In this document: positions 27,707 to 47,716 of the stretch, in pieces
Layout: each line of letters begins with the position of its first letter
Position numbering within the stretch: position 1 is the stretch's first letter
Assembly (NCBI RefSeq): GCF_023715505.1
Contig: NZ_JAMBOH010000007.1
Location: 124,001-188,000 of the forward strand
Length of the DNA: 64,000 nucleotides
Direction of reading: 5' to 3'
Origin: Neobacillus cucumis
GTDB lineage: Bacteria > Bacillota > Bacilli > Bacillales_B > DSM-18226
Notes under the pieces: model-generated
Databases searched by the model: none
What the model was told of the DNA's origin: nothing
What the model saw: the letters and a program-made list of their open reading frames with translations, nothing else
Position numbers and translations under genes: made by a program

Positions 27707-27724
27707 GATGTAATCCATTACATC
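27707..27724. promoter_or_regulatory. LacI-type operator, TGTAATCCATTACA class
   Basis: GATGTAATCCATTACATC is a palindrome except for its central two bases. It matches the site at 43021 and overlaps the AraC stop codon, upstream of the hydrolase-transporter operon. Confidence 0.45.
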
Positions 27725-32111: not shown

Positions 32112-33272
32112 CTATTTTGCTGCCTTTTGAATAACTTCTGGGGCATCTTGACGATAAGCCATTTTCCAAACCTTTAAGACGTTTTCCTTTGTAACTTTCA
32201 TCGATGGAACAACATAGTATGGATCTAATTGTTTGCCAAGTAATGAATATCCGGCAACAAGAGCTTGCGCAGCTCCGTTTTCATATGGTAACTGTGCTCC
32301 AAGACCTTTTACATTCCCTCCAGAAGCAATTTGAAGCGCCACGTTCGTTCCTAAATCAACTGTAGTGATAACTAAATCATTTTTCCCTGCTGTACGAGCT
32401 GCAGCAAGTGTTCCTTCCGCTGGTACATCCCAAATCGCAAAAATCCCATCTAAATCTTTGTGTTTTGTTAACATACCTGAGGCTACTTTTTCAGCATCGT
32501 TAGGAGTGATAATTCCACCATGGGCAACAATTTTAATATTTGGATATTTTTCTTTAATGGTTTTCTCAAATGCTTCTTTACGTTGGTTATTTACAAAGAA
32601 ATTAACATCGTGGAAAATAACACCGATTTTCCCTTTTCCTTTTAGTTCATCACCCATAATTTCACCGGCAAAGATACCGTTTCCATAGTTATCTGATGAA
32701 ACAACGCTGACATAATCTTTTCCAGCTTTGAACCCTTTTGGTACGTTATCCATGAAGACTAGTTTTACACCGGCTTCCGCAGCCTTTTTAAAAGCGGGAG
32801 CAGTAGCAACAGGATCAACCGGCAGAGCTACGATAACATCTGGCTTTTTAGCCATGATGGTTTCGATATCTGAAATTTGTTTTTCAGGCTTGAATTGGGC
32901 ATCCGTAACGGCCACAACTTTGATGCCCATTTTTTCAAAAGTGTCTTTTACACCATTGATGATGGCAGTTGAGAAATCATTTCCTGCATAGTGCATGGAA
33001 ATAGCGGCTTTGAATTTACCTTCTTTAATTTTCTTTACGTCCTCTTCAGACAATTGCAAAGTTGCTGCAGGTGTGGCTGTTTCTCCATTTGGACCTGTAC
33101 TTAAAATTTTCTGATTGCTTGGTATTTCAGGGTTAATGGTAAGAGGATAGGTAACTTTTACTGATGCTTCTTTTTGCTTACCTGAAGCAGTTGAACTTTG
33201 TTTTCCACACCCAATAAGAGCCAAACTGCTAATTAAGAGTATCGTTACGATTAGTAAAGTAAGTTTTTTCAT
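32112..33272 (-). CDS. CUT2-type sugar-binding lipoprotein 1 (Peripla_BP_4)
   Basis: 386 residues from the ATG after GGGGG. The signal peptide ends at the lipobox LIGC; the mature part is a two-lobed periplasmic-binding fold. Shared motifs with the lipoproteins at 33315 and 41731 and with the kinase tail at 45143: MHYAGNDF, VTDAQFK, YGNG, DVPAEG, GLGAQLPY. It has no transport genes of its own directly downstream and probably uses the permease at 39-41 kb. Ligand unknown. Confidence 0.85.
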   Translation of the reverse strand: MKKLTLLIVTILLISSLALIGCGKQSSTASGKQKEASVKVTYPLTINPEIPSNQKILSTGPNGETATPAATLQLSEEDVKKIKEGKFKAAISMHYAGNDFSTAIINGVKDTFEKMGIKVVAVTDAQFKPEKQISDIETIMAKKPDVIVALPVDPVATAPAFKKAAEAGVKLVFMDNVPKGFKAGKDYVSVVSSDNYGNGIFAGEIMGDELKGKGKIGVIFHDVNFFVNNQRKEAFEKTIKEKYPNIKIVAHGGIITPNDAEKVASGMLTKHKDLDGIFAIWDVPAEGTLAAARTAGKNDLVITTVDLGTNVALQIASGGNVKGLGAQLPYENGAAQALVAGYSLLGKQLDPYYVVPSMKVTKENVLKVWKMAYRQDAPEVIQKAAK

Positions 33273-33314
33273 AGTAACCCCCAATAATAGATTTAGATAA
33301 TAATAGTGTTTTTA

Positions 33315-34490
33315 TTATTTAGCTGCCCCTTGGATGGACTTAGGTGCCTCTTGGTGGTAAACAAGTTTCCATGCATCTAATACATTTTCTTTCGTTACAT
33401 TTAAAGCTGGAACAGCTACATAGGCAGGTGCTTCCTTACCAAGTAAAGAATAACCAGCTAAAATCGCTTCTGAAATCCCCTGGTCATATGGCAGCTGAGC
33501 ACCTAGACCTTTAATCAAACCATTTGATGCAATGTCTAAAGCAACGTTTGTCCCTAAATCAATTGTCGTAATGACAAAATCTTTCTTTCCTGCCGTTCGT
33601 GCTGCTGCCAATGCACCTTCAGCTGGAACGTCCCAAACGACAAACATTCCATCAAGGTCACGATTTTTGGTCAGCATACCTGATGCTACTTTCTCTCCAT
33701 CGTTAGGGCCAATGATACCGCCGCGTTCAACGATTTTAATTTTTGGATATTTTTCTTTTATTGTTTTTTCAAAGGCTTCTGTACGCTGTTTGGTCACAAA
33801 GTAATCAGCATCATGATAGATTACGCCGATCTTCCCTTTTCCACCAAGCTGTTTCGCCATGATTTCAGCTGCTTGAACACCATTGCCATAGTTGTCTGCA
33901 GATACAACGCTCACATAATCCTTGCCGGCTTCTAATCCTTTTGGTTTATTATCCATGAACACGACTTTGACTCCTGCATCTGCCGCTTTCTTAAAAGCGG
34001 ATGCAGTTGAAACAGGGTCTACTGGTATCCCCACGATAATATCCGGCTTTTTAGCTAAAACTGTTTCGATGTCGGATACTTGTTTCTCAGCCTTGAACTG
34101 GGCATCAGTTACAGCTACGACTTTAATTCCCATCTTTGCAAAGGTTGCTTTTAAGCCATTGATTTGTGCTGTTGCCCAGTCATTACCAGCATAGTGCATG
34201 ACAATGGCCGCTTTGTATTTGCCTTCTTTGATTTTTTGCACCTCTTCTTCAGTAAGCTGCAATGTTTTTGCTGAAACAGCGGATTCTCCACTAGGACCTT
34301 TACTTAAAATTTCCTGATCGGGTATATCTTGATTAATCGTTATTGGGCCTGAACTTGCGGTTGTTTCTTCTGTTTTTGTGTTCTCTGTCTCTTTGCTTGT
34401 GCTGCTAGTTGTGCTATCCTTGCCGCAGCCGACAAGTGCGACGCTAGTGATAAATAGAATCATAGTAAAAACACTTAGTAACTTTTTCAT
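33315..34490 (-). CDS. CUT2-type sugar-binding lipoprotein 2 (Peripla_BP_4)
   Basis: 391 residues. The start was moved to the ATG after AAGGGGG. Lipobox LVGC, then a Ser/Thr/Glu-rich linker of about 30 residues, then the binding fold starting at TINQDIPDQEIL. It is the closest relative of the kinase-fused binding domain at 45143, sharing SADNYGNG, TKQRTE, VTKENVLDAWKLVY and other segments. First gene of the minus operon; two LacI-type operators lie 95-165 bases upstream. Confidence 0.86.
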   Translation of the reverse strand: MKKLLSVFTMILFITSVALVGCGKDSTTSSTSKETENTKTEETTASSGPITINQDIPDQEILSKGPSGESAVSAKTLQLTEEEVQKIKEGKYKAAIVMHYAGNDWATAQINGLKATFAKMGIKVVAVTDAQFKAEKQVSDIETVLAKKPDIIVGIPVDPVSTASAFKKAADAGVKVVFMDNKPKGLEAGKDYVSVVSADNYGNGVQAAEIMAKQLGGKGKIGVIYHDADYFVTKQRTEAFEKTIKEKYPKIKIVERGGIIGPNDGEKVASGMLTKNRDLDGMFVVWDVPAEGALAAARTAGKKDFVITTIDLGTNVALDIASNGLIKGLGAQLPYDQGISEAILAGYSLLGKEAPAYVAVPALNVTKENVLDAWKLVYHQEAPKSIQGAAK

Positions 34491-34584
34491 GACTTGCCCC
34501 CTTTTCATCGTTGTAACTTTTAATCCATTGATAGAAATACTGAAGTATTTTTATCGTTTTTATGTATCACATCCTCTCACTTAA

Positions 34585-36858: not shown

Positions 36859-37830
36859 TTAAGCCCACCACATCTCGGTAATTTTCTCCTTGAACATGGC
36901 CCCTTTTAAGAGAGTAATAGCTTTGCTTAGTCCCTCGTCGGTGGAAGCAAGCATATCTTCATGTTCGATGGAAATGACATAATCGTATCCGACCGCTTGA
37001 AGGGCACTTACTATGTCTTTCCACATTTTTTCGTCCGAGCCGTATCCGACTGATCTAAATGTCCAAGAGCGGTCTAAAATTTGGCTATAATGCTTTGTAT
37101 CTAGAACACCATTAATCTTTATATTTGCTTGATCTAAATATGTGTCCTTCGCATGGAAATGGAAAATCGCATTTTCCCTGCCCAGCTTCTTTATCGCCTC
37201 GACCGGGTCAATTCCTTGCCAAACGAGGTGGCTCGGATCAAAGTTTGCTCCAATGTTTTCTCCTGCATGTTCCCTTAACTTCAGTAAGGTTTCAGGATTA
37301 TAAACGACAAAACCTGGGTGCATTTCAAAAGCAATTTGCTGAATGCCATGCTCTTTCGCGAATTTTGCTTCCTCTTTCCAATAAGGAATAACGACTTCGT
37401 TCCATTGCCAGTTCAGCACTTCTAAATATTCCGGAGGCCATGAGCATGTAACCCAGTTTGGATTTTTTGCACTGATATGATCACCCGGACAGCCGGAGAA
37501 GCCATTGATAACAGGAATTTCCAAAAGTTCTGAAAGTAATACCGTTTTTCGCCAAACGTCATGTGACTCTTGAGCAATGTTTACATTTGGATGAAGCGGG
37601 TTACCGTGGCAGCTTAAGCCGCTGATCGTTATTCCCCTAGTTCCAAGCGCTCTCAGGAATGATTTTCTTTTTTCAGGAGATTCAAGCAATTCATCCGGAT
37701 TACAGTGATGATTGCCGGGATAATTCCCTGTCCCCAATTCAACGGCCTCCACACCCATGGCTGCCAGTTTATCCAACATTTCTTCAAAAGGCAGGTTCTG
37801 ATACAAGGGGGTAAATACACCTAATTTCAC
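36859..37830 (-). CDS. Sugar phosphate isomerase/epimerase family protein paired with a Gfo/Idh/MocA oxidoreductase
   Basis: 323 residues, start GTG after AAGGAGG, overlapping the oxidoreductase stop codon (GTGA). Barrel ligand motifs: Glu in IAFEMHPGFVVYN, Asp in NFDPSHLVWQGID, His in FHFHAKDTYLD, Glu in ISIEHED. This longer subfamily often travels with Gfo/Idh/MocA dehydrogenases. In known 3-keto-glycoside systems (for example the DgpA/DgpC C-glycoside pathway) such pairs oxidise a sugar at C3 and then cleave or isomerise it. The same logic is inferred here. Confidence 0.8.
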   Translation of the reverse strand: MKLGVFTPLYQNLPFEEMLDKLAAMGVEAVELGTGNYPGNHHCNPDELLESPEKRKSFLRALGTRGITISGLSCHGNPLHPNVNIAQESHDVWRKTVLLSELLEIPVINGFSGCPGDHISAKNPNWVTCSWPPEYLEVLNWQWNEVVIPYWKEEAKFAKEHGIQQIAFEMHPGFVVYNPETLLKLREHAGENIGANFDPSHLVWQGIDPVEAIKKLGRENAIFHFHAKDTYLDQANIKINGVLDTKHYSQILDRSWTFRSVGYGSDEKMWKDIVSALQAVGYDYVISIEHEDMLASTDEGLSKAITLLKGAMFKEKITEMWWA

Positions 37831-39005
37831 GCAAGTACCTCCTTGCTAGCCTGAACCTTCACCCATTTCTGCTGCTGGTTACTTTCTAAGATTGCGTCTG
37901 TGATACACATCGAAAGGTGCCCGTCTGCAAATGTCGCAAAATTAGACTTGTCTGTTTTCAAGCTTTTGCCATCGCGAACAAACGAGTAGAAATTCAACAT
38001 CATATTTTTCAAAGCATCTGGCCAGCCTTCATTATGCCCTCCAGGATGATGAATAGCAGACCTTGCCTCCGGCGAAAACAACGCAGGATCCGCTAATAGA
38101 ACTTCATTTGCTTTATCCCGGTGCCCGATCCATAGCTTCTCTGGTTCTTCTTGGTTCCAGAATATTGAAGCTTGACTTCCATTAATCTCAAAGCTTAATC
38201 TATTTTTCCGTCCCGCACTGACTTGAGATACCGTAAAGACTCCTCGTGCTCCATCTTCAAACCGGACAAGAACAGATGCATAATCTTCTGTATTAATTGG
38301 TACATCTTCATATTGCATATCTTCCGCCGTCTGTGCCCCAAAAGTAGCTACGTTTCCTGTCGGTTTCTTTCTTACTGGAACAACAGTTGATAAATCGGCA
38401 AAAACTTCGACAATCCTTTTGCCTGTTACAAATTGGACGGTATCACACCAATGGGAACCAATGTCCGCTACTGCGCGTGACTTTCCGCCTACTTCCGGCG
38501 CCAAACGCCAGTTGTAGTCGGTTTCATATAATAACCAGTCCTGCAAGTAGCTTCCGTGAACCAAGTTCACTTTCCCAAGATCACCTTCAGTGATTTTCGC
38601 TTTTAAGTTTTGCACACTCGCATGCTGTCTGTAATTAAAGTTCACCGCATGGATGACGCCTTGTTTTTCTGCTAACTCCAACAATTCTGCTGATTCATCA
38701 CTGTTCATAGCCAGTGGTTTCTCTGAGACAACATGCTTTCCAGCTAAAATAATCTCTTTATTAATGGCAAAATGAAGATGATTTGGTGTGCAATTGTGCA
38801 CTACCTGGATTTCACTGTCTCTCAGCATTTCTCGGTAATCACCAAAGGCCTTCGGAATTCCAAGCTCAGCTGCCTTTTTTTCAGCCATTTCTTGACTGGT
38901 TTCCGCCAAACCAGCTACTTCTACAAAACCAAGCCTTCTAATGGCTTCTATGTGAGTCGGCCCGATAAAACCAGTACCGATGATACCAACTTTAATCTTC
39001 TCCAT
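37827..39005 (-). CDS. Gfo/Idh/MocA family oxidoreductase
   Basis: 392 residues. The N-terminal Rossmann fold has VGIIGTGFIGPTH; the catalytic lysine lies in SEKPLAM; the C-terminal domain has ADIGSHWCDTVQF with the usual Asp-x-x-x-His pair. Members oxidise sugars, inositols or glycosides with NAD(P). It is in an operon with the CUT2 transporter and two isomerases, consistent with oxidation of the imported sugar. Start follows AGGAGGAAG. Confidence 0.85.
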   Translation of the reverse strand: MEKIKVGIIGTGFIGPTHIEAIRRLGFVEVAGLAETSQEMAEKKAAELGIPKAFGDYREMLRDSEIQVVHNCTPNHLHFAINKEIILAGKHVVSEKPLAMNSDESAELLELAEKQGVIHAVNFNYRQHASVQNLKAKITEGDLGKVNLVHGSYLQDWLLYETDYNWRLAPEVGGKSRAVADIGSHWCDTVQFVTGKRIVEVFADLSTVVPVRKKPTGNVATFGAQTAEDMQYEDVPINTEDYASVLVRFEDGARGVFTVSQVSAGRKNRLSFEINGSQASIFWNQEEPEKLWIGHRDKANEVLLADPALFSPEARSAIHHPGGHNEGWPDALKNMMLNFYSFVRDGKSLKTDKSNFATFADGHLSMCITDAILESNQQQKWVKVQASKEVLA

Positions 39006-39207: not shown

Positions 39208-40188
39208 TTACCTCTTCAACGCTTTCTTACCGAAAGCCACCGCCAAGATAATGATAATTCCTTTGATAATCATTTGCTGGCTGACATCAAGACCCATGAT
39301 AATCAAACCATTGTTGATCGTACCAATCATTAAGGAACCAACAATCGTTCCGATAATCGTTCCTACACCGCCAAACAAGCTTGTCCCACCAAGGATAACC
39401 GCAGCAATAACAGAAAGCTCATCCCCTTCACCGAAGGAAAAACGTCCGGCATTCATACGGCCTGCATAAAGGAGACCAGCTAAACCAGCCATTAAACCAG
39501 TTGCAAGGAATACCATTAGCTTGATCTTCATTGTCTTTACGCCAGAGAATCTTGCCGCATTTTCGTTACCACCTGTCGCCAATACCTGACGGCCAAAAGA
39601 TGTTTTACGAAGTAAGATATGAGCAATCACTGTAAATACTAGAGTCCAAATAAGTAGAACTGGAATCGGCCCAATGTCCCCTGAACCAAAGATGAAATTG
39701 AAATTTGCGTCTACAATCGGAACTGGAGCAGTATCTGTAACCCACATCGCAGCACCTTTAACAGCTCCCATTGTTCCAAGTGTTACTAAGAAAGAAGGAA
39801 TCGCTACTTTTGTTACTAGCAAACCATTGATTAATCCAACCACAAGTCCAGTACCTACACCGCCGATGAGTCCACCAATAATGCCATAACCCGCTTGGAT
39901 GGCTAATGCACCGACTAGAGAAGAAAGGGCCGCAATGGAACCAACAGAAAGGTCAATCTCCCCTGTACTAATAACAAATGTCATTGCCAACGCCATCAAA
40001 GAAATCGTCGCTGTTTGTCTAACAATGTTTAATAAGTTCCCTGAGGTTAAGAAACCTTCATCACTTAAGCTGATAGAAAAATAGATTAATACGCCCACGA
40101 AGGCAAAATAGACAATATAATTACGCCACTCGAATCCTTTCAATGAAGGAGTTGCTGGCTTTTGAATACTAGAAACCTTGGATTGCAT
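39208..40188 (-). CDS. CUT2 sugar ABC transporter permease (RbsC family)
   Basis: 326 residues, about 9-10 helices. FVISTGEIDLSVGSIAALSS and VILGGTSLFGGVGTIIGTIV are the family loops. Its start lies inside the ATPase gene (20-base overlap) after GAGGAGG, so it is translationally coupled. It is the only permease for the three related lipoproteins encoded nearby. Confidence 0.88.
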   Translation of the reverse strand: MQSKVSSIQKPATPSLKGFEWRNYIVYFAFVGVLIYFSISLSDEGFLTSGNLLNIVRQTATISLMALAMTFVISTGEIDLSVGSIAALSSLVGALAIQAGYGIIGGLIGGVGTGLVVGLINGLLVTKVAIPSFLVTLGTMGAVKGAAMWVTDTAPVPIVDANFNFIFGSGDIGPIPVLLIWTLVFTVIAHILLRKTSFGRQVLATGGNENAARFSGVKTMKIKLMVFLATGLMAGLAGLLYAGRMNAGRFSFGEGDELSVIAAVILGGTSLFGGVGTIIGTIVGSLMIGTINNGLIIMGLDVSQQMIIKGIIIILAVAFGKKALKR

Positions 40189-41665
40189 ATTGTAATTCCT
40201 CCTCTGATTTAATCTCCCTGCGGGTCATTTCCTTTTTAATTTTCCCATCATGCATGACGATCACACGGTCACTTAAAGCAAGCAGTTCTGGGAGTTCGGA
40301 GGAGACCACAAGGATTGCCTTGCCGTTTTCGGCCATGGCTCTAATAATCTCCACAATTTCCGTTTTTGCACCAATATCCACACCAATCGTTGGTTCATCT
40401 AACATCAAGACAGTAGGGTCGTTCGCCAGCCATTTAGCTAGAACGATTTTTTGCTGATTACCGCCCGATAACAACCCGGCCTTTTTAAAAATATTATCCG
40501 TTTTAATATTTAACTTCCTTACAAATTCATTACTAATCTCATTGGATTTCTTACTATCAATAAAAGCTCCTTTTTTCACCTTCGAAAGAATTGGAAGAAT
40601 CATATTATCCTTGACACTATGTTCAAGGACCAATCCTTGCATCCTGCGGTCCTCCGGAATCAGTGCAAGTCCGGCTTCTATGGCATTCTTAGGATTCTTA
40701 ATGGATTGTTTTTGACCACTGATGTAGATGTCTCCACTCTTAATTGGGTCAATCCCAAAGAGATTTCGAAGTAATTCCGTCCGGCCGCTTCCCATTAACC
40801 CGGCAATTCCAACGATTTCACCCGGCTGAATTTTTAGATTAATATCTTGGACATGTTCGGCACTTAAGTTTCTTACTTCAAAAATGGGCGGCACGTCCGT
40901 TGCGTAGGAACGTTCTTTCCATTCAAACGCTTGGTCAAATTGCATACCGACTATATGTGAAATTACAGTATCAAGATCGGTTTCACTGCATTTTTCTGTT
41001 GTGATATATCGGCCATCACGCATAATCGTGATTCGGTCACATATTTCAAAGATTTCATCCATCCGGTGAGAAATATAGATGATGGAATAACCTTTTGCTT
41101 TCAATTTGTTAATAAAACTAAAGAGTACTTCCGTTTCATTTTTGGTTAAGGACGAGGTTGGCTCATCCATAATCAGAATCTTTGCTTCTTGGGAAAGTGC
41201 TTTGGCAATTTCCGTCATCTGCCAATAGCCAACCCCCAAATTTTGAACTACATCATTGGGTCTAATATCTACGCCTAATTCTTCAAGCAATTTTTCTGTT
41301 TTCTTCTCACAATCCTTATCATCGAGCAGCCCTAATGATGTTTTCTTCTCACGAGTAAGATAGATGTTTTGGGCGACGGTAAGGGTAGGAATTAAACTAA
41401 ACTCTTGGAAAATCATCGATATATTATTCTTTTGAGCATCATCATAACTTTTAATGCTTACCGGTTTTCCTTCAATTAAAATCTCGCCGCTGTCTGCAGA
41501 GTATACGCCTGTGAGGATTTTCATTAACGTCGATTTCCCGGCACCATTTCCCCCCATCAAGGCGTGAACTTCACCTTTTTTGACGGAAAAATGGACATCG
41601 TTTAAAACGGTAATCCCATTAAAAGCTTTATTAATACCTCTCATTTCGAGAATCGGTTGTTCCAT
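40169..41665 (-). CDS. CUT2 sugar ABC transporter ATP-binding protein (RbsA-like)
   Basis: 498 residues, two ABC domains. First: Walker A GGNGAGKST, Walker B ILIMDEPTSSLT. Second: modified Walker A GLMGSGRTEL (the usual Arg variant of this class), signature LLSGGNQQKIVLAKWL, Walker B VLMLDEPTIGVDIG. It energises the permease encoded just below. Start follows AAGGTGA. Confidence 0.9.
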   Translation of the reverse strand: MEQPILEMRGINKAFNGITVLNDVHFSVKKGEVHALMGGNGAGKSTLMKILTGVYSADSGEILIEGKPVSIKSYDDAQKNNISMIFQEFSLIPTLTVAQNIYLTREKKTSLGLLDDKDCEKKTEKLLEELGVDIRPNDVVQNLGVGYWQMTEIAKALSQEAKILIMDEPTSSLTKNETEVLFSFINKLKAKGYSIIYISHRMDEIFEICDRITIMRDGRYITTEKCSETDLDTVISHIVGMQFDQAFEWKERSYATDVPPIFEVRNLSAEHVQDINLKIQPGEIVGIAGLMGSGRTELLRNLFGIDPIKSGDIYISGQKQSIKNPKNAIEAGLALIPEDRRMQGLVLEHSVKDNMILPILSKVKKGAFIDSKKSNEISNEFVRKLNIKTDNIFKKAGLLSGGNQQKIVLAKWLANDPTVLMLDEPTIGVDIGAKTEIVEIIRAMAENGKAILVVSSELPELLALSDRVIVMHDGKIKKEMTRREIKSEEELQYAIQGF

Positions 41666-41689
41666 CCAAGTTCACCTTCTTTTTATGTT

Positions 41690-41715
41690 AGAGGCTGCTT
41701 TCAAAAGCAGCCTCT
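41690..41715 (-). other. Hairpin between lipoprotein 3 and ATPase genes
   Basis: Stem AGAGGCTGCTTT / AAAGCAGCCTCT (T-run only on the plus strand). On the transcribed strand it probably stabilises the upstream binding-protein message. Confidence 0.5.
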
Positions 41716-41730
41716 ATCCTTTTTTTAAAA

Positions 41731-42900
41731 TTATTTCATCGCATTTTTTACTGTGTCAGGAGCCTCTGTTCCGTAGATTAACTTCCATTCATCTAATACA
41801 TTCTCTTTCGTAACTTTGATTGATGGTGAAGCAACATACGCTGGTGCTTCTTTTCCTATTAGGGCATAGCCGGCAAGGATCGCTTGTGCCACACCTTGGT
41901 CATATGGCAGCTGTGCTCCAAGACCTTTAACAATTCCATCTTGTGCAATAGAGATTGCTACGTTTGTACCTAAGTCAACTGTTGTAACAACTAGGTCATC
42001 CCTGCCAGCCGTTCTTGCTGCAGCCATAACACCTTCAGCCGGTACATCCCATGGAGCGAAGATACCATCAATATCATGGTGTCTTGTCAACATAGCAGAT
42101 GCTACTTCTTCTGCCTGATTTGGACCAGTAATCCCACTTTTTGCTACAATCTCAATATTTGGATATTTTTCTTTGATTCTTTTTTCAAAAGCATCAGAAC
42201 GGTTTTTGGTTACAAAGAAGTTTACATCGTGATACACAATGCCGACTTTACCCTTTCCGCCAAGTTTTTCAGCCATAATGTCTGCTGCGGTTGCTCCGTT
42301 ACCCATGTTGTCACCAGACACAATACTGATGTAATCTTTACCTGCAACTAAACCTTGTGCAGCACCATCCATGAATACTAACTTTACGCCTTGGGCAACA
42401 ACCTTTTTATAAGCTGGTGCGGTAGATACGGCATCAACTGGAACAGAAATCATAATGTCCGGCTTTTTCGCTAAAACGGTTTCGATATCATTTACTTGCT
42501 TTTCCGCTTTGAACTGTGCATCTGTTACAGCAACGATCTTGATGCCCATCTTCTTAAATGTATCCTTCATCGCACCAACTGCGGCATTCATATAGTCAGT
42601 ACCAGAGTAGTGCATAACAATCGCCGCTTTATAATTACCTTCTTTAATCTTCTTTAGCTCATCTTCCGTAAGCTGCAATGTCTTAGCTGAAACGGCCTGT
42701 TCTCCGTTCGGCCCTTTATCTTGTACCGCTAAATCAGGAATCTTTGGATTGATCGTTAATGGTCCTGAAGCTGTTTCTGAGTAGTTTTCATTCTTTTTCG
42801 TGCTCGCTTGTTCAGATGTAGATTTTTTTCCGCCACACCCTGCAAGAAAAACACTTAAAACAAGTAACAGTAAAACTGTAATAGAAAAACTCTTTTTCAT
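41731..42900 (-). CDS. CUT2-type sugar-binding lipoprotein 3 (Peripla_BP_4), operon leader
   Basis: 389 residues from the ATG after TGGGGG. Lipobox FLAGC; mature fold begins at TINPKIPDLAVQ. It shares MHYSGTDY, VTDAQFKAEKQV, NMGNG, WDVPAEG and GLGAQLPYDQG with lipoproteins 1 and 2 and the kinase tail. First gene of the transporter-Gfo-isomerase operon. Its promoter lies between two LacI-type operators 57 bases apart. Confidence 0.88.
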   Translation of the reverse strand: MKKSFSITVLLLLVLSVFLAGCGGKKSTSEQASTKKNENYSETASGPLTINPKIPDLAVQDKGPNGEQAVSAKTLQLTEDELKKIKEGNYKAAIVMHYSGTDYMNAAVGAMKDTFKKMGIKIVAVTDAQFKAEKQVNDIETVLAKKPDIMISVPVDAVSTAPAYKKVVAQGVKLVFMDGAAQGLVAGKDYISIVSGDNMGNGATAADIMAEKLGGKGKVGIVYHDVNFFVTKNRSDAFEKRIKEKYPNIEIVAKSGITGPNQAEEVASAMLTRHHDIDGIFAPWDVPAEGVMAAARTAGRDDLVVTTVDLGTNVAISIAQDGIVKGLGAQLPYDQGVAQAILAGYALIGKEAPAYVASPSIKVTKENVLDEWKLIYGTEAPDTVKNAMK

Positions 42901-43020
42901 TTGATTACCCCCACTATAGTAGTTATTTAGTTGAAGCTCGTTATTTGTCGGTACCACCTTACAATCTATAAGTGTGGCACCACCCCCTTTTCATAAATGT
43001 AAGCTTAATAGAATATTACT

Positions 43021-43076: not shown

Positions 43077-43092
43077 ATGTAATTGATTACAT
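43077..43092. promoter_or_regulatory. LacI-type operator upstream of the lipoprotein 3 promoter
   Basis: ATGTAATTGATTACAT, palindromic except the central pair, adjacent to the -35 box. It overlaps the region just after the truncated LacI stop codon. Confidence 0.6.
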
Positions 43093-43098
43093 TTTTTT

Positions 43099-43974
43099 CT
43101 AAAAAATTTTCAAATACTCCTGACAAGACTGTCTTACAATCAACTGGTTAGCTAAAAACATTTGCTCGTGTTGGATTTCCTCTTTGTTGATGAGCCTCAA
43201 TAGTAATTCCGCCACTTTCTCACCAATTTCAAACGCGGGCTGGGCAATCGTTGTCAGACCTGGTTCGAATATGGACGAGAATTTCAGATTATCAAAACCG
43301 AGAACCGAAATATCCTCTGGCACCTTAAGCCCCTTAGATTTAATGGCTTTAATGACTCCCATTGCCATTTCATCATTTGCAGCGAAAATCGCAGATGGGA
43401 GTTGACCAATGGCAAAAAACTTCATCATAAGGTTAAAACCGCTTTCAAAAGAGAAATCACCTTCCTGGACTAACACAGGATCCACGATAAGGTTGTTGCT
43501 TGACATTGCTTGATAAAATCCTTTGAGACGGTCTCGGTTCAAGACACTATTGAGAGGTCCAATAATGCAGCCAATTCTTTCGTGTCCCAAATCGATTAAA
43601 TATTCCGTTGCATTTCTGGCACCGCTTATGTTATCAATCGAAACAGTTGTGATGTTGGAACCTTCCATATACTCACACGCAAGGACCAACGGAAATCTTT
43701 GGGCCACCTCTTCAACGGTTGCTGCATCCGTTTGGGCAGTTAATAAAGCCATTCCATCTGCTTTTTTTTGATGCAAAAGGTTTAAAAACCACTTTTCTCG
43801 TTCCAGATCATTGCCTGTATCGCCGAGTATAACTTGATATCCATTTGTAACCGCTACTGCTTCAATCCCCCTAAACACCTTTGAAAAAAACGGATTGGTA
43901 ATGTCAGGCACAACAACTAGAATGGTTTTAGCAGAAACAATTTCCTTCTTTGCTACATCTACAATCCCTACCAT
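43099..43974 (-). CDS. LacI-family ligand-binding protein with deleted DNA-binding domain
   Basis: 291 residues. It begins MVGIVDVAKKE, the normal first helix of a LacI HTH, then jumps in frame to SAKTILVVVPDITNPFFSKV, the normal start of the effector domain. About 45 residues (recognition helix and hinge) are missing. The rest of the sugar-binding domain is intact to VRQSCQEYLKIF. The upstream region keeps an AAAGGAC site and a perfect TGTAATCGATTACA operator. It cannot bind DNA in the usual way. It may be a decaying repressor or a dominant-negative partner of an intact paralogue elsewhere (inference). Confidence 0.82.
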   Translation of the reverse strand: MVGIVDVAKKEIVSAKTILVVVPDITNPFFSKVFRGIEAVAVTNGYQVILGDTGNDLEREKWFLNLLHQKKADGMALLTAQTDAATVEEVAQRFPLVLACEYMEGSNITTVSIDNISGARNATEYLIDLGHERIGCIIGPLNSVLNRDRLKGFYQAMSSNNLIVDPVLVQEGDFSFESGFNLMMKFFAIGQLPSAIFAANDEMAMGVIKAIKSKGLKVPEDISVLGFDNLKFSSIFEPGLTTIAQPAFEIGEKVAELLLRLINKEEIQHEQMFLANQLIVRQSCQEYLKIF

Positions 43975-44010
43975 CTTTGTTATTTGTCCTTTCTTGTTTC
44001 TATATTTAAA

Positions 44011-44026
44011 TTGTAATCGATTACAA
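44011..44026. promoter_or_regulatory. Perfect LacI-type operator upstream of the truncated lacI gene
   Basis: TTGTAATCGATTACAA, a 16-base perfect palindrome, 37 bases before the start codon. It is the best copy of the operator class seen at 34585, 34641, 43021, 43077 and 27707. Confidence 0.65.
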
Positions 44027-44134
44027 AATTGTCGTCTAATCATCTTCCGACAAGGTTTTTTTTCAACTGAAGTCGTTTTCTATCCTTTTGGACACAATAA
44101 TCGTTCATTCGGACAATAAAATCATAAATTTTTT

Positions 44135-44175
44135 AAAAAAACAAAAAAATTGAGGTCCGGTAAACCCGGACCTCA
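44135..44175 (-). terminator. Terminator of the LytTR regulator gene
   Basis: Perfect 10-bp stem TGAGGTCCGG / CCGGACCTCA overlapping the stop codon, then T-rich sequence (seven T, G, seven T) on the minus strand. Confidence 0.75.
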
Positions 44176-44886
44176 CAACGATTTATTTTTTTGTAATTCT
44201 GCTAACTTATTCTTGGAAACTTTTGCTGTCTCCTCATAATTTTTAAAATATGCTTTGTACGTTTGCCCTGCCGTTTCAATCCTCTTTAAATATTGCAAAT
44301 TAATAATATAGGAACGATGGGAGGCTACAAAACGGGAATCAAGGAGTTCTTCAAGATTCGTTAACGCCTCATTTACCTCTATTTTTTGATCAATTGTATG
44401 AATGACGGCCTTTCGGTCCGCTCGTTCAATAAAAATAATGTCATCTAACGGTATAAAAGAAAACCGATTGGACTGTTTAACCATTAAATCCTTCTTAACG
44501 GTTGGGCGCTCGCTTTCGGCTGGAGTCTTAGCAAGTGCAGCTGCTCGTCCTAACGCTGCATAAAGACGGTCACGGTCAATAGGTTTGACAATGTAATCGA
44601 TTGCATTTACACTAAAAGCTTCTAAGGCAAACTCATCATGCCCGGTGATAAAGATAACTTGCAATGACGGGACTACTTTTTTACAAGATTTCACCGCTTC
44701 CATCCCATTCAACAATGGCATATTAATATCAACCAAAATGATGTCTGGCTTTTCAATCATCACCTTGCAAATTAAATCCTCACCATTAACGGCTTCTCCA
44801 ACCATTTCATAACTCTGCAAAGGTTTAATGAGATGCTTCAATAGTTTTCTGGATGGTGCATGGTCCTCTGCAATTAAAACTCTCAA
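44173..44886 (-). CDS. LytTR family response regulator
   Basis: 237 residues. Receiver domain 1-115 with phospho-acceptor Asp53 (ILVDINMP) and Lys101 (YIVKPID). LytTR DNA-binding domain at about 130-235 with FSFIPLDDIIFIERADRKAV and FVASHRSYIINLQYLKRIE. The start is TTG after AGGTGATC. It is divergent from the hybrid kinase gene at 45143, with separate promoters in the 250-base gap, and is its likely partner. Its targets are probably the sugar operons beside it (inference). Confidence 0.85.
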   Translation of the reverse strand: MRVLIAEDHAPSRKLLKHLIKPLQSYEMVGEAVNGEDLICKVMIEKPDIILVDINMPLLNGMEAVKSCKKVVPSLQVIFITGHDEFALEAFSVNAIDYIVKPIDRDRLYAALGRAAALAKTPAESERPTVKKDLMVKQSNRFSFIPLDDIIFIERADRKAVIHTIDQKIEVNEALTNLEELLDSRFVASHRSYIINLQYLKRIETAGQTYKAYFKNYEETAKVSKNKLAELQKNKSL

Positions 44887-45057
44887 AAGATCACCTCATA
44901 TTAAAAGCTTCTATTTAAGTGGAACATTAATATAAAAATTAATAGATAACATACTACCATTTGAAATCGCTGTCAAACTAACTACTCTCAGTATAAGGCA
45001 GTTTAAGCAGGATAGGAAGTATTTTATTATTAAATAGGTATGGCGGTTTTTTGCAGT

Positions 45058-45086: not shown

Positions 45087-45142
45087 AAAGCTACGGCTTC
45101 AGAAAAATGCATGATTATTCTTTCGGAAGGCAGGGTATAAAA

Positions 45143-47716
45143 ATGGAAATCACCCCTAACGAAAATTTATATAAAGAAGTTTTACAAACCATGTCTGAAT
45201 GCGTCATTATTCATAAAAAGTCGGGTAGAATGATTGCGCTTAATGAAAATGTTGAAAAAGTGCTAGGTGTTAAATCCGAATTATTAACGGAAGCAAATGT
45301 ACGCCAATTAGATTATGTAAAAGAAGACGGATCCTCCCTACCCTATTCGGAATTGCCTGGAATCATCACCCTCGAACAGGGGATTCCTTTCCATGATTAT
45401 GTCTTGGGAGTAAGCGATCGAAATAATGGGACTAAATGGCTTTCCATTACTTCAAAACCACTTAAATTACATAAAGACGGGGAACAAGCCGCGCTTGTGA
45501 CCATATCGGATATTACCGAACGAAAAAAGATGGAACAAACAATCATTCAGGCAAAAGAAGCGGCGGAAAAAGCGAACTTAACCAAAACCGACTTTTTGTC
45601 CAAAATGAGCCATGAACTCCGGACACCATTGAACGGAATCCTTGGTTTTGCCCAGCTATTAGAAATAGATGAGTCCTTAAATGAGGAGCAGCTGGACTTC
45701 GTCCAAGAGATCTTAAGCGGAGGAAAGCATCTATTAAGCTTAATTAATGATATTTTAGATTTATCCAGAATCGATACAGGCCAATTAAAAGTTTCAATTG
45801 AAGAGGTAGATCTGCTGACCATTATCAATGAATGTATCCATATCGTGCAGCCGCTTGCCATGAAAAAAAGAATTACAATTCATAATCAAATGGACCATTC
45901 GCAAACCGTAACCGTTCTTGCCGATCCGATTCGCCTAAAACAAATCCTACTTAATCTTCTCGATAATGCCATCAAATATAACCGGGAAGACGGCAAAGTC
46001 ATGATTTTCTCTTATATGAAACAAAACGAGGCAGTTATTCATATCGCCGATACAGGAGTCGGGCTTTCAGTTGAAGAATATCAGAAAGTGTTTGTCCCAT
46101 TTTATCGGATTAAAGGGACACAAGAGGAAGGTACGGGCATTGGATTGTCTTTGGTCAAGCAGCTTGTCCAGGTGATGGGCGGAAAAATCAGTGTGACAAG
46201 CAAAAAAGGAATAGGCAGTGATTTTTGCTTTCGACTCCCTCTTCCCTATGAATTAAAGGCCGCGATGCAATGGGGTGAAGAAGTGATCGATCATCCAGCT
46301 AAGAATGGCAAGACTGATCACTACTGTTTGTTATATGTGGAAGATAATCAATCTAATTTAAATTTGGTCATGAGCATCCTGAAATCGGAACCCTCCTATA
46401 CAATCTTAACGGCACGTTCCGGAAAAGAAGGATTAGAACTGGCTAAGACTGAAAAAGTCGATTTAATTCTGCTGGATCTTAACCTCCCGGATATCCATGG
46501 TTTCGAATTATTTGACCGTTTAAAAAAGGATGAAAATACGAAAGATATCGCGATTATTGCGGTAAGTGCAAATGCTATGCCCCATGACATCCAGCATACA
46601 TTAAACAAAGGGTTTGATAATTATGTGATAAAACCCATTAATGTGAAGGGATTCTTAACAACGGTAAACGAGACTCTAACGAGTACGATCAATCAAAATA
46701 TTCCCGAGCGTAAAATTTTAAGTACAGGTCCCTACGGTGAGGAAGCTGTTTCTGCTAAAACACTACAGTTATCGGTAAAGGATCTAAAGCAACTGAAGGA
46801 TAAAAAATATAAGGCTGCCATTTCCATGCATTATACAGATAATGATTGGTCCAGGTCTCAAGTGGAAGGGCTAAAAGCTACTTTTAAGAAAATAGGTATT
46901 GAGGTAGTTGCGGTGACAGATGCACATTTTAAATGGGAGAAGCAAGTGGAAGATATTGAAAACATCTTAGAATTAAAGCCAGATATTATAGTAGGGATTC
47001 CTGTTGATCCGGAAAAAACGTCAAACACCTTCCAAGTTGCGTCGAGAACTGGGGTTCATCTGGTCTTTATAGACAATGTACCAAAGGGATTACTGCCTAG
47101 AAGGGATTATGTTAGCATTGTATCAGCTGACAATTATGGAAACGGTAGTGAGGCAGCACATATTATGGCCGAGAAATTATCTTACAAAGGCAAGATTGGG
47201 GTTATTTATCATGCTGCCGACTTCTTCGCCACAAAACAAAGGACAGAATCATTTGAAAATATGATAATGAAACATTATCCAAACATAAAAATTGTGGACC
47301 GTAGAGGGATTGTAGGTCCATATGAAGGAGAAATTGCAGCAACTAGTATGTTAACGAAAAATAAAGATTTGGCCGGAATCTTTGTTGTATGGAGTGATCC
47401 TGCCGAAGGAGTCATAGCTGCAGCACGTAAGGCAGGCGCTGATCATCTAGTTATCACAACGATTGATATGGGGGTTAATGTTGTATTAGAAATGGTTAAA
47501 GATGGACTTATTAAGGGATTGGGTGCCCAGCTGCCCTATCAACAAGGAGTGGCGGAAGCCATCTTGGCAGGTTATGCACTGATTGGAAAACAGGCTCCAG
47601 CTTATGTAGCTGTTCCCCCTTTAAGAGTAACAAAAGAGAATGTTCTTGATGCTTGGAAGTTAGTTTATAACGAGGAAGCTCCGGATATTATTAAAAGGTT
47701 TATAACTAATGAATGA
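45143..47716 (+). CDS. Cytoplasmic hybrid histidine kinase fused to a CUT2-type sugar-binding protein (PAS-HisKA-HATPase-REC-PBP)
   Basis: 857 residues from the ATG at 45143 (GGCAGGG upstream); residue numbers here count from an in-frame ATG at 45107. PAS about 20-140; HisKA with His169 (SKMSHELRTPLNG); HATPase with Asn287 (LLNLLDNAIKYN), IADTGVGL and GTGIGLSLV; receiver 405-525 with Glu412, Asp413, phospho-acceptor Asp457 (LLDLNLPD) and Lys509. From Thr527 the protein becomes a complete periplasmic sugar-binding fold (TINQNIPERKIL to the end) closely matching the mature part of lipoprotein 2. There is no signal peptide, lipobox or membrane helix, so the binding domain lies in the cytoplasm. 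The reading frame is unbroken across the join. It probably senses an intracellular sugar for the divergent LytTR regulator. Confidence 0.88.
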   Translation: MEITPNENLYKEVLQTMSECVIIHKKSGRMIALNENVEKVLGVKSELLTEANVRQLDYVKEDGSSLPYSELPGIITLEQGIPFHDYVLGVSDRNNGTKWLSITSKPLKLHKDGEQAALVTISDITERKKMEQTIIQAKEAAEKANLTKTDFLSKMSHELRTPLNGILGFAQLLEIDESLNEEQLDFVQEILSGGKHLLSLINDILDLSRIDTGQLKVSIEEVDLLTIINECIHIVQPLAMKKRITIHNQMDHSQTVTVLADPIRLKQILLNLLDNAIKYNREDGKVMIFSYMKQNEAVIHIADTGVGLSVEEYQKVFVPFYRIKGTQEEGTGIGLSLVKQLVQVMGGKISVTSKKGIGSDFCFRLPLPYELKAAMQWGEEVIDHPAKNGKTDHYCLLYVEDNQSNLNLVMSILKSEPSYTILTARSGKEGLELAKTEKVDLILLDLNLPDIHGFELFDRLKKDENTKDIAIIAVSANAMPHDIQHTLNKGFDNYVIKPINVKGFLTTVNETLTSTINQNIPERKILSTGPYGEEAVSAKTLQLSVKDLKQLKDKKYKAAISMHYTDNDWSRSQVEGLKATFKKIGIEVVAVTDAHFKWEKQVEDIENILELKPDIIVGIPVDPEKTSNTFQVASRTGVHLVFIDNVPKGLLPRRDYVSIVSADNYGNGSEAAHIMAEKLSYKGKIGVIYHAADFFATKQRTESFENMIMKHYPNIKIVDRRGIVGPYEGEIAATSMLTKNKDLAGIFVVWSDPAEGVIAAARKAGADHLVITTIDMGVNVVLEMVKDGLIKGLGAQLPYQQGVAEAILAGYALIGKQAPAYVAVPPLRVTKENVLDAWKLVYNEEAPDIIKRFITNE

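Follow-up and report, generated by a model that had tools for sequence, protein, structure and literature searches.

Substrate-binding proteins (SBPs) of CUT2 sugar transporters are normally extracytoplasmic. LacI and XylR-type regulators use the SBP fold as a cytosolic sugar sensor joined directly to a DNA-binding domain, with no kinase, and in XylFII-LytS a separate extracellular SBP acts on the outer domain of the kinase. In hybrid two-component systems (HTCS) of the Bacteroides BT1754 type, a periplasmic SBP precedes the kinase on a chain that also holds membrane segments and the regulator. Published accounts describe the periplasmic-binding-protein sensor of these Bacteroides systems (BT1754, PDB 2x7x; PMC3404733) and, for the three-component system CuaD-CuaS-CuaR, a separate extracellular SBP that binds the outer domain of the kinase (PMC10384115). 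Here we describe a different arrangement, encoded in 64,000 nucleotides of Neobacillus cucumis (contig NZ_JAMBOH010000007.1, positions 124,001 to 188,000; the window): a soluble hybrid histidine kinase that carries a CUT2-type SBP domain behind its receiver, which we call HK-SBP. This protein probably works as a receptor inside the cell for a sugar that has been imported without phosphorylation, likely levoglucosan or a relative, and would signal to a LytTR regulator encoded beside it.

The reading frame is open to 47716 from an ATG at 45107 (869 aa) or at 45143 (857 aa), and 45143 is the likelier start because many relatives begin at the equivalent of MEITPNENLYKEVL found there. A Pfam search of the 857-aa form returned HisKA (residues 148-213), HATPase_c (261-368), Response_reg (397-506), and Peripla_BP_4 (559-815), in the following layout:

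45143..47716, plus strand: HK-SBP, soluble hybrid histidine kinase with a C-terminal CUT2 SBP domain (alternative start 45107)
45155..45511, plus strand: PAS-like N-terminal domain, residues 5-123, from AlphaFold2 (AF2) secondary structure, with PAS Pfam matches only in some relatives
45584..45781, plus strand: HisKA, phospho-acceptor H157 (Pfam; H157 invariant in aligned proteins)
45923..46246, plus strand: HATPase_c (Pfam; N275, D303, G305, G330, and G332 invariant)
46331..46660, plus strand: receiver domain, phospho-acceptor D445 (Pfam; D401, D445, and K497 invariant)
46730..47713, plus strand: CUT2-type SBP domain, residues 530-857, with pocket-equivalents N567, W569, D644, R700, W750, S751, D775, and Q796

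The single chain carries the HisKA histidine, HATPase boxes, and receiver aspartate of a hybrid histidine kinase, with H157 and D445 invariant across 41 aligned proteins, followed by the complete two-lobe Peripla_BP_4 fold and the sugar-pocket residues of a CUT2 substrate-binding protein, S751 being the exception in the window. An earlier note, made from the letters of this DNA, had described one unbroken frame of just these parts, and the domain search bears it out. The phospho-acceptors that it gave as His169 and Asp457 are the right, invariant residues, although the numbering was counted from 45107. Its PAS domain stands in part: the AF2 model has an alpha/beta domain at about residues 20-123 and some relatives do give PAS matches, but no PAS family passed 1e-3 in a Pfam search of the window protein. 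Its reading of the C-terminal part as kin to the lipoprotein encoded at 33315, in a protein with no signal peptide, lipobox, or membrane segment, agrees with the comparisons that follow.

Over 331 aa, the SBP domain is 66% identical to the 33315 lipoprotein, where the match spans residues 63-393 of a 397-aa chain, and it is 57% identical to the lipoproteins at 41731 and 32112. A Kyte-Doolittle scan found no hydrophobic segment or export signal in HK-SBP, its 19-residue peak reaching 1.37 compared with 2.4-2.6 in the lipoprotein signals. For want of an export signal, the C-terminus of the predicted protein is an SBP-derived domain and not a transporter SBP. Three relatives were outliers in hydrophobicity: P0014 (1.8; an extended N-terminus in a single-sequence cluster), P0055 (1.8, at residue 326), and P0011 (2.2, at residue 746 within the SBP domain).

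HK-SBP is a conserved family, as judged from its homologues, and not a one-off. In a search across 5.8 billion proteins, the 120 matches listed include at least 57 clusters with this design; 56 of them (P0002-P0057) contain the full set of four domains, and P0058 is partial. One of them, P0002 (12 member sequences), is the window's own cluster and is 99% identical to the window protein over its full length. Named sources include Neobacillus, Peribacillus, Niallia, Domibacillus, Halalkalibacter, Fictibacillus, Mesobacillus, and Ammoniphilus. Beyond these clusters there is a steep fall in the matches listed, and the kinases that come next align with only some half of the query. The fusion was present in at least 16 of 193 genomes of one family (a lower bound, with four candidates scored per genome), none with internal stops, as well as in one of two genomes of a second sample and in 2 of 398 genomes drawn evenly from the class (two candidates scored per genome). 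When 80 loci were scanned on their contigs, only L001 and L005 matched the SBP part; the other 78 stopped by query residue 573 and were left out of the family. N-terminal length and PAS content vary among members, and the SBP part is constant. In eight kinase pairs sharing genomes, dN/dS (NG86) of the SBP part was 0.12-0.29, and by this measure the SBP domain of the family is under purifying selection. We therefore rejected both an assembly artifact or one-off, on the 56 full clusters and the 16 of 193 genomes free of internal stops, and a decaying fusion, on dN/dS and the kept pocket. The chance that the gene is an artifact of assembly error, read-through, or decay is accordingly vanishingly small, given full clusters from several sources. 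The earlier note had left room for an assembly error at the join, for decay, and for the same architecture being missing elsewhere; with P0002, 55 further four-domain clusters, and the dN/dS values, none of these held.

The divergent LytTR neighbor that the note had pointed to was likewise found beside most relatives. We annotated 19 loci against the window. A LytTR gene adjoins the kinase in 18, divergently in 15 and co-directionally in 3 (L001, L115, and L116); in the 19th, from Bacillus taeanensis, LytTR and LacI genes stand about 13 kb upstream of the kinase, at the head of the sugar operon. Of the 19 stretches, 16 had a LacI gene and 15 had a CUT2 ATPase and permease resembling those of the window, with a more distant pair in L114. 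The neighborhood in the window comprises the following:

44173..44886, minus strand: LytTR response regulator, proposed phospho-partner (Response_reg and LytTR, Pfam)
44989..45002, plus strand: conserved direct repeat CAGTATAAGgCAGT / CAGTATAAGnCAGT, candidate LytTR site, upstream of the promoter-like -35 of LytTR (44976)
43099..44043, minus strand: LacI-family regulator with its helix-turn-helix (HTH) deleted in frame (best Pfam scores Peripla_BP_3 and Peripla_BP_1)
43078..43091, unstranded: palindromic LacI-type operator TGTAATCNATTACA, with others at 27709, 34585, 34641, 43021, and 44012
41731..42957, minus strand: SBP-C lipoprotein
40169..41665, minus strand: CUT2 ATPase
39208..40188, minus strand: CUT2 permease
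37827..39005, minus strand: Gfo/Idh/MocA dehydrogenase, LgdA-like but not LgdA (208 bits, cut-off 650)
36859..37830, minus strand: putative TIM-barrel isomerase/epimerase-like protein (tentative label; no NCBIfam match at 1e-15)
33315..34508, minus strand: SBP-B lipoprotein, the closest operon paralogue of the HK-SBP sensor, with relatives beside lgdA
32112..33284, minus strand: SBP-A lipoprotein, to which the exchanged sensor of the other kinase lineage is most closely related

The window and 11 of the 15 divergent loci carry the direct repeat CAGTATAAGnCAGT without a mismatch, and L104 and L112 carry it with one. With two mismatches allowed, it matched three times in the window (1.1 expected), once exactly. 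In five genomes searched throughout, it lay at the promoter between the kinase and LytTR in all five, with one stray in G152 (six matches altogether).

The sensor domain appears to have been exchanged once within the family. A tree of 98 SBP domains (all 45 non-redundant kinase domains, 46 of 49 stand-alone SBPs, 5 of 53 ABC rows, and 2 of 5 tandem rows) placed 32 kinases, the window's included, in one clade (clade 1; support 100) and the other 13 beside SBP-A (clade 2; support 100); a single kinase clade was rejected (p-AU 0.0067), and an earlier 93-row tree gave the same split. In the kinase-core tree, all 45 HK-SBP proteins fell on one side and 13 other kinases on the other (support 96), and the 13 exchanged kinases were nested among the other 32 (23-row set, support 98); forcing the 32 together was not formally rejected (p-AU 0.083), and the 13 as one clade had p-AU 0.50. 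Both clades hold the same place beside LytTR (L100-L107 in clade 1, L108-L114 in clade 2). Because the two trees disagree, the simplest reading is that in one lineage a copy of a different lipoprotein of the operon took the place of the sensor and brought its own pocket type along. The window's own sensor evolves faster than its kinase: P0001 and P0004 share 90-98% identity in 50-residue bins of residues 1-350 and 42-78% in bins of residues 551-850, and in the window lineage the core is 88% identical to P0003 and the SBP part 67% to P0003 and 64% to P0004. A second exchange in this lineage was not supported, as an SBP tree constrained to group P0001 with P0003/4/6/7/16/19 was worse by 2.7 log units (p-AU 0.42), and fast divergence would be the simpler explanation.

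Pocket positions were assigned as what we take to be the equivalents of the ribose contacts of Escherichia coli RbsB, aligned by motif. R700, W750, D775, and Q796 are identical in 35/35 clade-1 kinases, 22/22 clade-2 kinases, 155/155 Bacillales-type stand-alone SBPs, and 58/58 "ABC" rows. These rows include P0133, a stand-alone SBP with no ATPase, which is placed in the exported group for the Cys counts below and is still labeled "ABC" in the 93-row tree, the pocket table, and the identity bins. Position 569 differs by type: Trp in 35/35 clade-1 kinases and 134/134 SBP-B-like proteins, Phe in 7/7 SBP-A and, with a single Tyr as the exception, in 21/22 clade-2 kinases, and Tyr in 14/14 SBP-C.

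Gene neighbors narrow the choice of ligand. Levoglucosan is an anhydrosugar of wood smoke that arises from the pyrolysis of cellulose. With levoglucosan dehydrogenase (LgdA) called by NCBIfam NF052479 at a cut-off of 650 bits, Gfo/Idh proteins encoded beside SBP-B in L001, L005, and L107, and beside an ATPase fusion (described below) in L120, scored 727-754 bits; the L001 copy matched PDB 6a3f at 643 bits. Kinase and LgdA occurred together in 14 of the 193 genomes; 2 had the kinase without LgdA, 7 had LgdA without the kinase, and 170 had neither (Fisher p 1.8e-14, uncorrected for kinship). In 13 of these 14 genomes the two genes shared a contig, at a distance of 4-44 kb, and in G142 they were on different contigs. 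LgdA was found in 0 of 14 control genomes. Because of this association, the ligand of the family is probably levoglucosan or a related anhydrosugar or intermediate. In two published studies, lgd loci of Bacillus smithii and Paenarthrobacter hold LacI, ABC sugar-transporter genes, and Gfo/Idh and TIM-barrel enzymes, and the 2023 network study places LytTR among the regulators neighboring lgdA (PMC7676230, PMC10066097). Window-type loci resemble these operons in their LacI, SBP/ATPase/permease, Gfo/Idh, and TIM-barrel genes. They differ in the kinase: the term histidine kinase has no occurrence in the main texts of PMC7676230 and PMC10066097. A literature search of open-licence papers likewise found no description of a levoglucosan-sensing kinase.

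The same SBP subfamily has also been joined to a transporter ATPase. When the SBP part was searched among proteins of about 471-1500 aa, the best 120 of 210 matches past the threshold comprised 57 kinases and as many CUT2 ATPases ending in an SBP, along with 4 tandem SBPs, P0126, and P0133. The ATPase-fused SBPs (P0127-P0184 minus P0133; some are fragments) are 48-56% identical, and their named sources are Rhodoferax, Acetobacteraceae, Ktedonobacteraceae, Anaerolineales, and Herpetosiphon. Five of these proteins, when scanned, had two ABC stretches and one Peripla_BP_4. The fusions have no membrane segment, with peak hydrophobicity of at most 1.7, and an AF2 model of one gave pLDDT mostly of 86-96 in the SBP part. 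Fusions were located at L120 7701-10292 and L121 8590-11493. Two genomes of one family encode the fusion close to a permease, sugar enzymes, and two separate SBPs with hydrophobic N-termini; in L120, it adjoins the LgdA gene that passes the cut-off and two separate exported-type SBPs. With such SBPs alongside, the cytosolic one would be additional. The fusion was found in 2 of 299 genomes of the family of G594 and, by genome search, in 0 of 7 genomes; 350 genomes of Chloroflexota (two candidates scored each) gave one ATPase-only match with a stop and no fusion. In the 98-row tree, ATPase-fused and tandem rows stand apart from all kinases and Bacillales lipoproteins (support 100), so that kinase and ATPase fusions look like separate events; on the 93-row tree, the ATPase fusions required five label changes, one of them forced by well-supported branches. 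Cysteine occurred in 3 of 168 exported homologues, 11 of 57 kinase SBP domains, and 17 of 57 ATPase fusions (3/55, 10/45, and 14/52 with near-copies removed; p 0.003, or 0.017 for kinases alone), and its greater frequency in both kinds of fusion is as expected for cytosolic life.

In four matches (P0122-P0125), two SBP domains of this subfamily stand in tandem on a protein of the exported type. One of the four, P0124, may share an operon with the ATPase fusion P0168, as the contigs of both have a listed length of 25760. P0126, a 1360-aa GAF histidine kinase with the SBP halves permuted and a LacI-type domain, is probably a chimera and was dropped.

On these observations, we give about even odds to a broader proposal, that anhydrosugar pathways have more than once brought a copy of the transporter binding protein inside the cell, where it serves as a receptor cassette that can be exchanged: onto a hybrid kinase in Bacillales, where in one lineage an operon paralogue replaced it, and separately onto the C-terminus of a CUT2 ATPase in Pseudomonadota and Chloroflexota, perhaps as a trans-inhibition or gating domain, so that one pocket type would read a single molecule outside the cell and again within it. 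Alternatively, the SBP domain might be an output or partner-binding module, with the PAS domain sensing and the phosphorylated receiver acting on an SBP that buffers sugar or docks a protein. Hybrid kinases usually bear transfer or output modules after the receiver, where this domain sits, and its presence at the C-terminus of the ATPase would also suit such a role; yet it is the N-terminus and PAS content that vary in the family, and the swap for another paralogue's pocket suggests ligand tuning, so we regard this alternative as rather improbable.

Our preferred reading remains that of an intracellular sugar receptor. ABC import delivers its substrate unphosphorylated, and a molecule bound outside by the lipoprotein can therefore be recognized inside by the same kind of pocket. 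The imported sugar would bind the cytosolic SBP domain and close it, closure would alter the arrangement of receiver and kinase, and the altered protein would shift phosphotransfer to the neighboring LytTR regulator, which would in turn tune the sugar module; ligand binding, the kinase effect, phosphotransfer to LytTR, and the target genes are steps that we infer.

Several observations weigh against this reading. The window holds no lgdA within its 64 kb, its Gfo/Idh protein scoring 208 bits, and levoglucosan is thus a weaker guess for the window protein than for the family; two genomes with the kinase (G151 and G155) also have no lgdA, and the association, seen among related genomes, may partly reflect one inherited or mobile island. 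No copy of the direct repeat was found at its usual place in L107 and L109 or ahead of the kinase gene in L001, L115, and L116, and the reversed control pattern gave 11 genome-wide matches to its 6, so that the motif says little about LytTR targets. The only conserved LytTR-like motif found was that of the intergenic region between the kinase and LytTR, which suggests autoregulation if the repeat is a LytTR site. As to the pocket, the window kinase has Ser at 751, a position held by Asp in 155/155 stand-alone SBPs of the Bacillales type and in 33/35 clade-1 domains (the other Ser being that of P0002), and N567 is replaced by Ser in 12 of 35 clade-1 domains; Ser 751 also occurs in two of four exported Rhodoferax-type SBPs. 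The earlier note had also allowed for a loss of ligand contacts; the pocket is mostly kept, residue 751 being the one position changed in the window protein.

These pocket changes, together with a sensor that evolves faster than its kinase (P0001 and P0004), could mean that the domain binds an internal metabolite other than the ligand of the lipoproteins, such as a keto-sugar intermediate, glucose, or a sugar phosphate, and reports pathway flux instead of the imported substrate. This is a minority view that we take seriously but consider unlikely, as R700, W750, D775, and Q796 are unchanged and the pocket type tracks the operon lipoproteins (Trp with SBP-B, Phe with SBP-A). S751, sequence drift, and the gain of Cys might even be taken to mean that the domain no longer binds a ligand and is kept for folding or dimerization; with the four core residues identical in 57/57 HK-SBP domains and purifying selection on the SBP part, we think this quite improbable.

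Some features of the surrounding operon deserve mention in their own right. The window LacI gene has lost its HTH by an in-frame deletion of about 44 residues, as in L100 and L102, and in L103 and L104 this deletion is accompanied by other damage to the frame; L001 and L106-L115 retain an intact HTH. The operator TGTAATCNATTACA, with at most two mismatches, gave 18 strand-matches in the window (2.77 expected; 0 of 100 shuffles reached as many), and LacI-type operators mark a regulon in a genome whose local LacI is without a DNA-binding domain. The window CUT2 ATPase, permease, and SBP-C genes (39208-42957) are 97-100% identical in L100-L106, where the kinases are only 72-80% identical, which points to recombination or transfer of the operon.

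In sum, a conserved soluble protein with an internal SBP sensor, with its parallel in the ATPase fusions, would represent a natural design for sensing imported sugars, and the HK-SBP family offers a scaffold for cytosolic sugar-responsive kinases and a candidate levoglucosan sensor. Our search of open-licence papers found no description of a soluble kinase with a CUT2 SBP behind its receiver, of the sensor exchange, or of the ATPase parallel. Kinases of Bacillaceae with PAS, HisKA, HATPase, and receiver domains (P0059 onward) have the same core, at about 42-62% identity over roughly half of the query, but no SBP domain in their precomputed Pfam lists. Like the LacI and XylR-type regulators, HK-SBP has a probable SBP-fold sugar sensor in the cytosol; unlike them, it bears that sensor on a kinase. 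With the three-component systems, it would share an SBP that informs a two-component system serving a sugar transporter, although here the SBP is fused and the kinase soluble, in place of a separate SBP on a membrane kinase. Compared with the Bacteroides HTCS, finally, the SBP domain is cytosolic, follows the receiver, and has no flanking membrane segments, and the chain has no Pfam DNA-binding output, the LytTR regulator being a separate protein.
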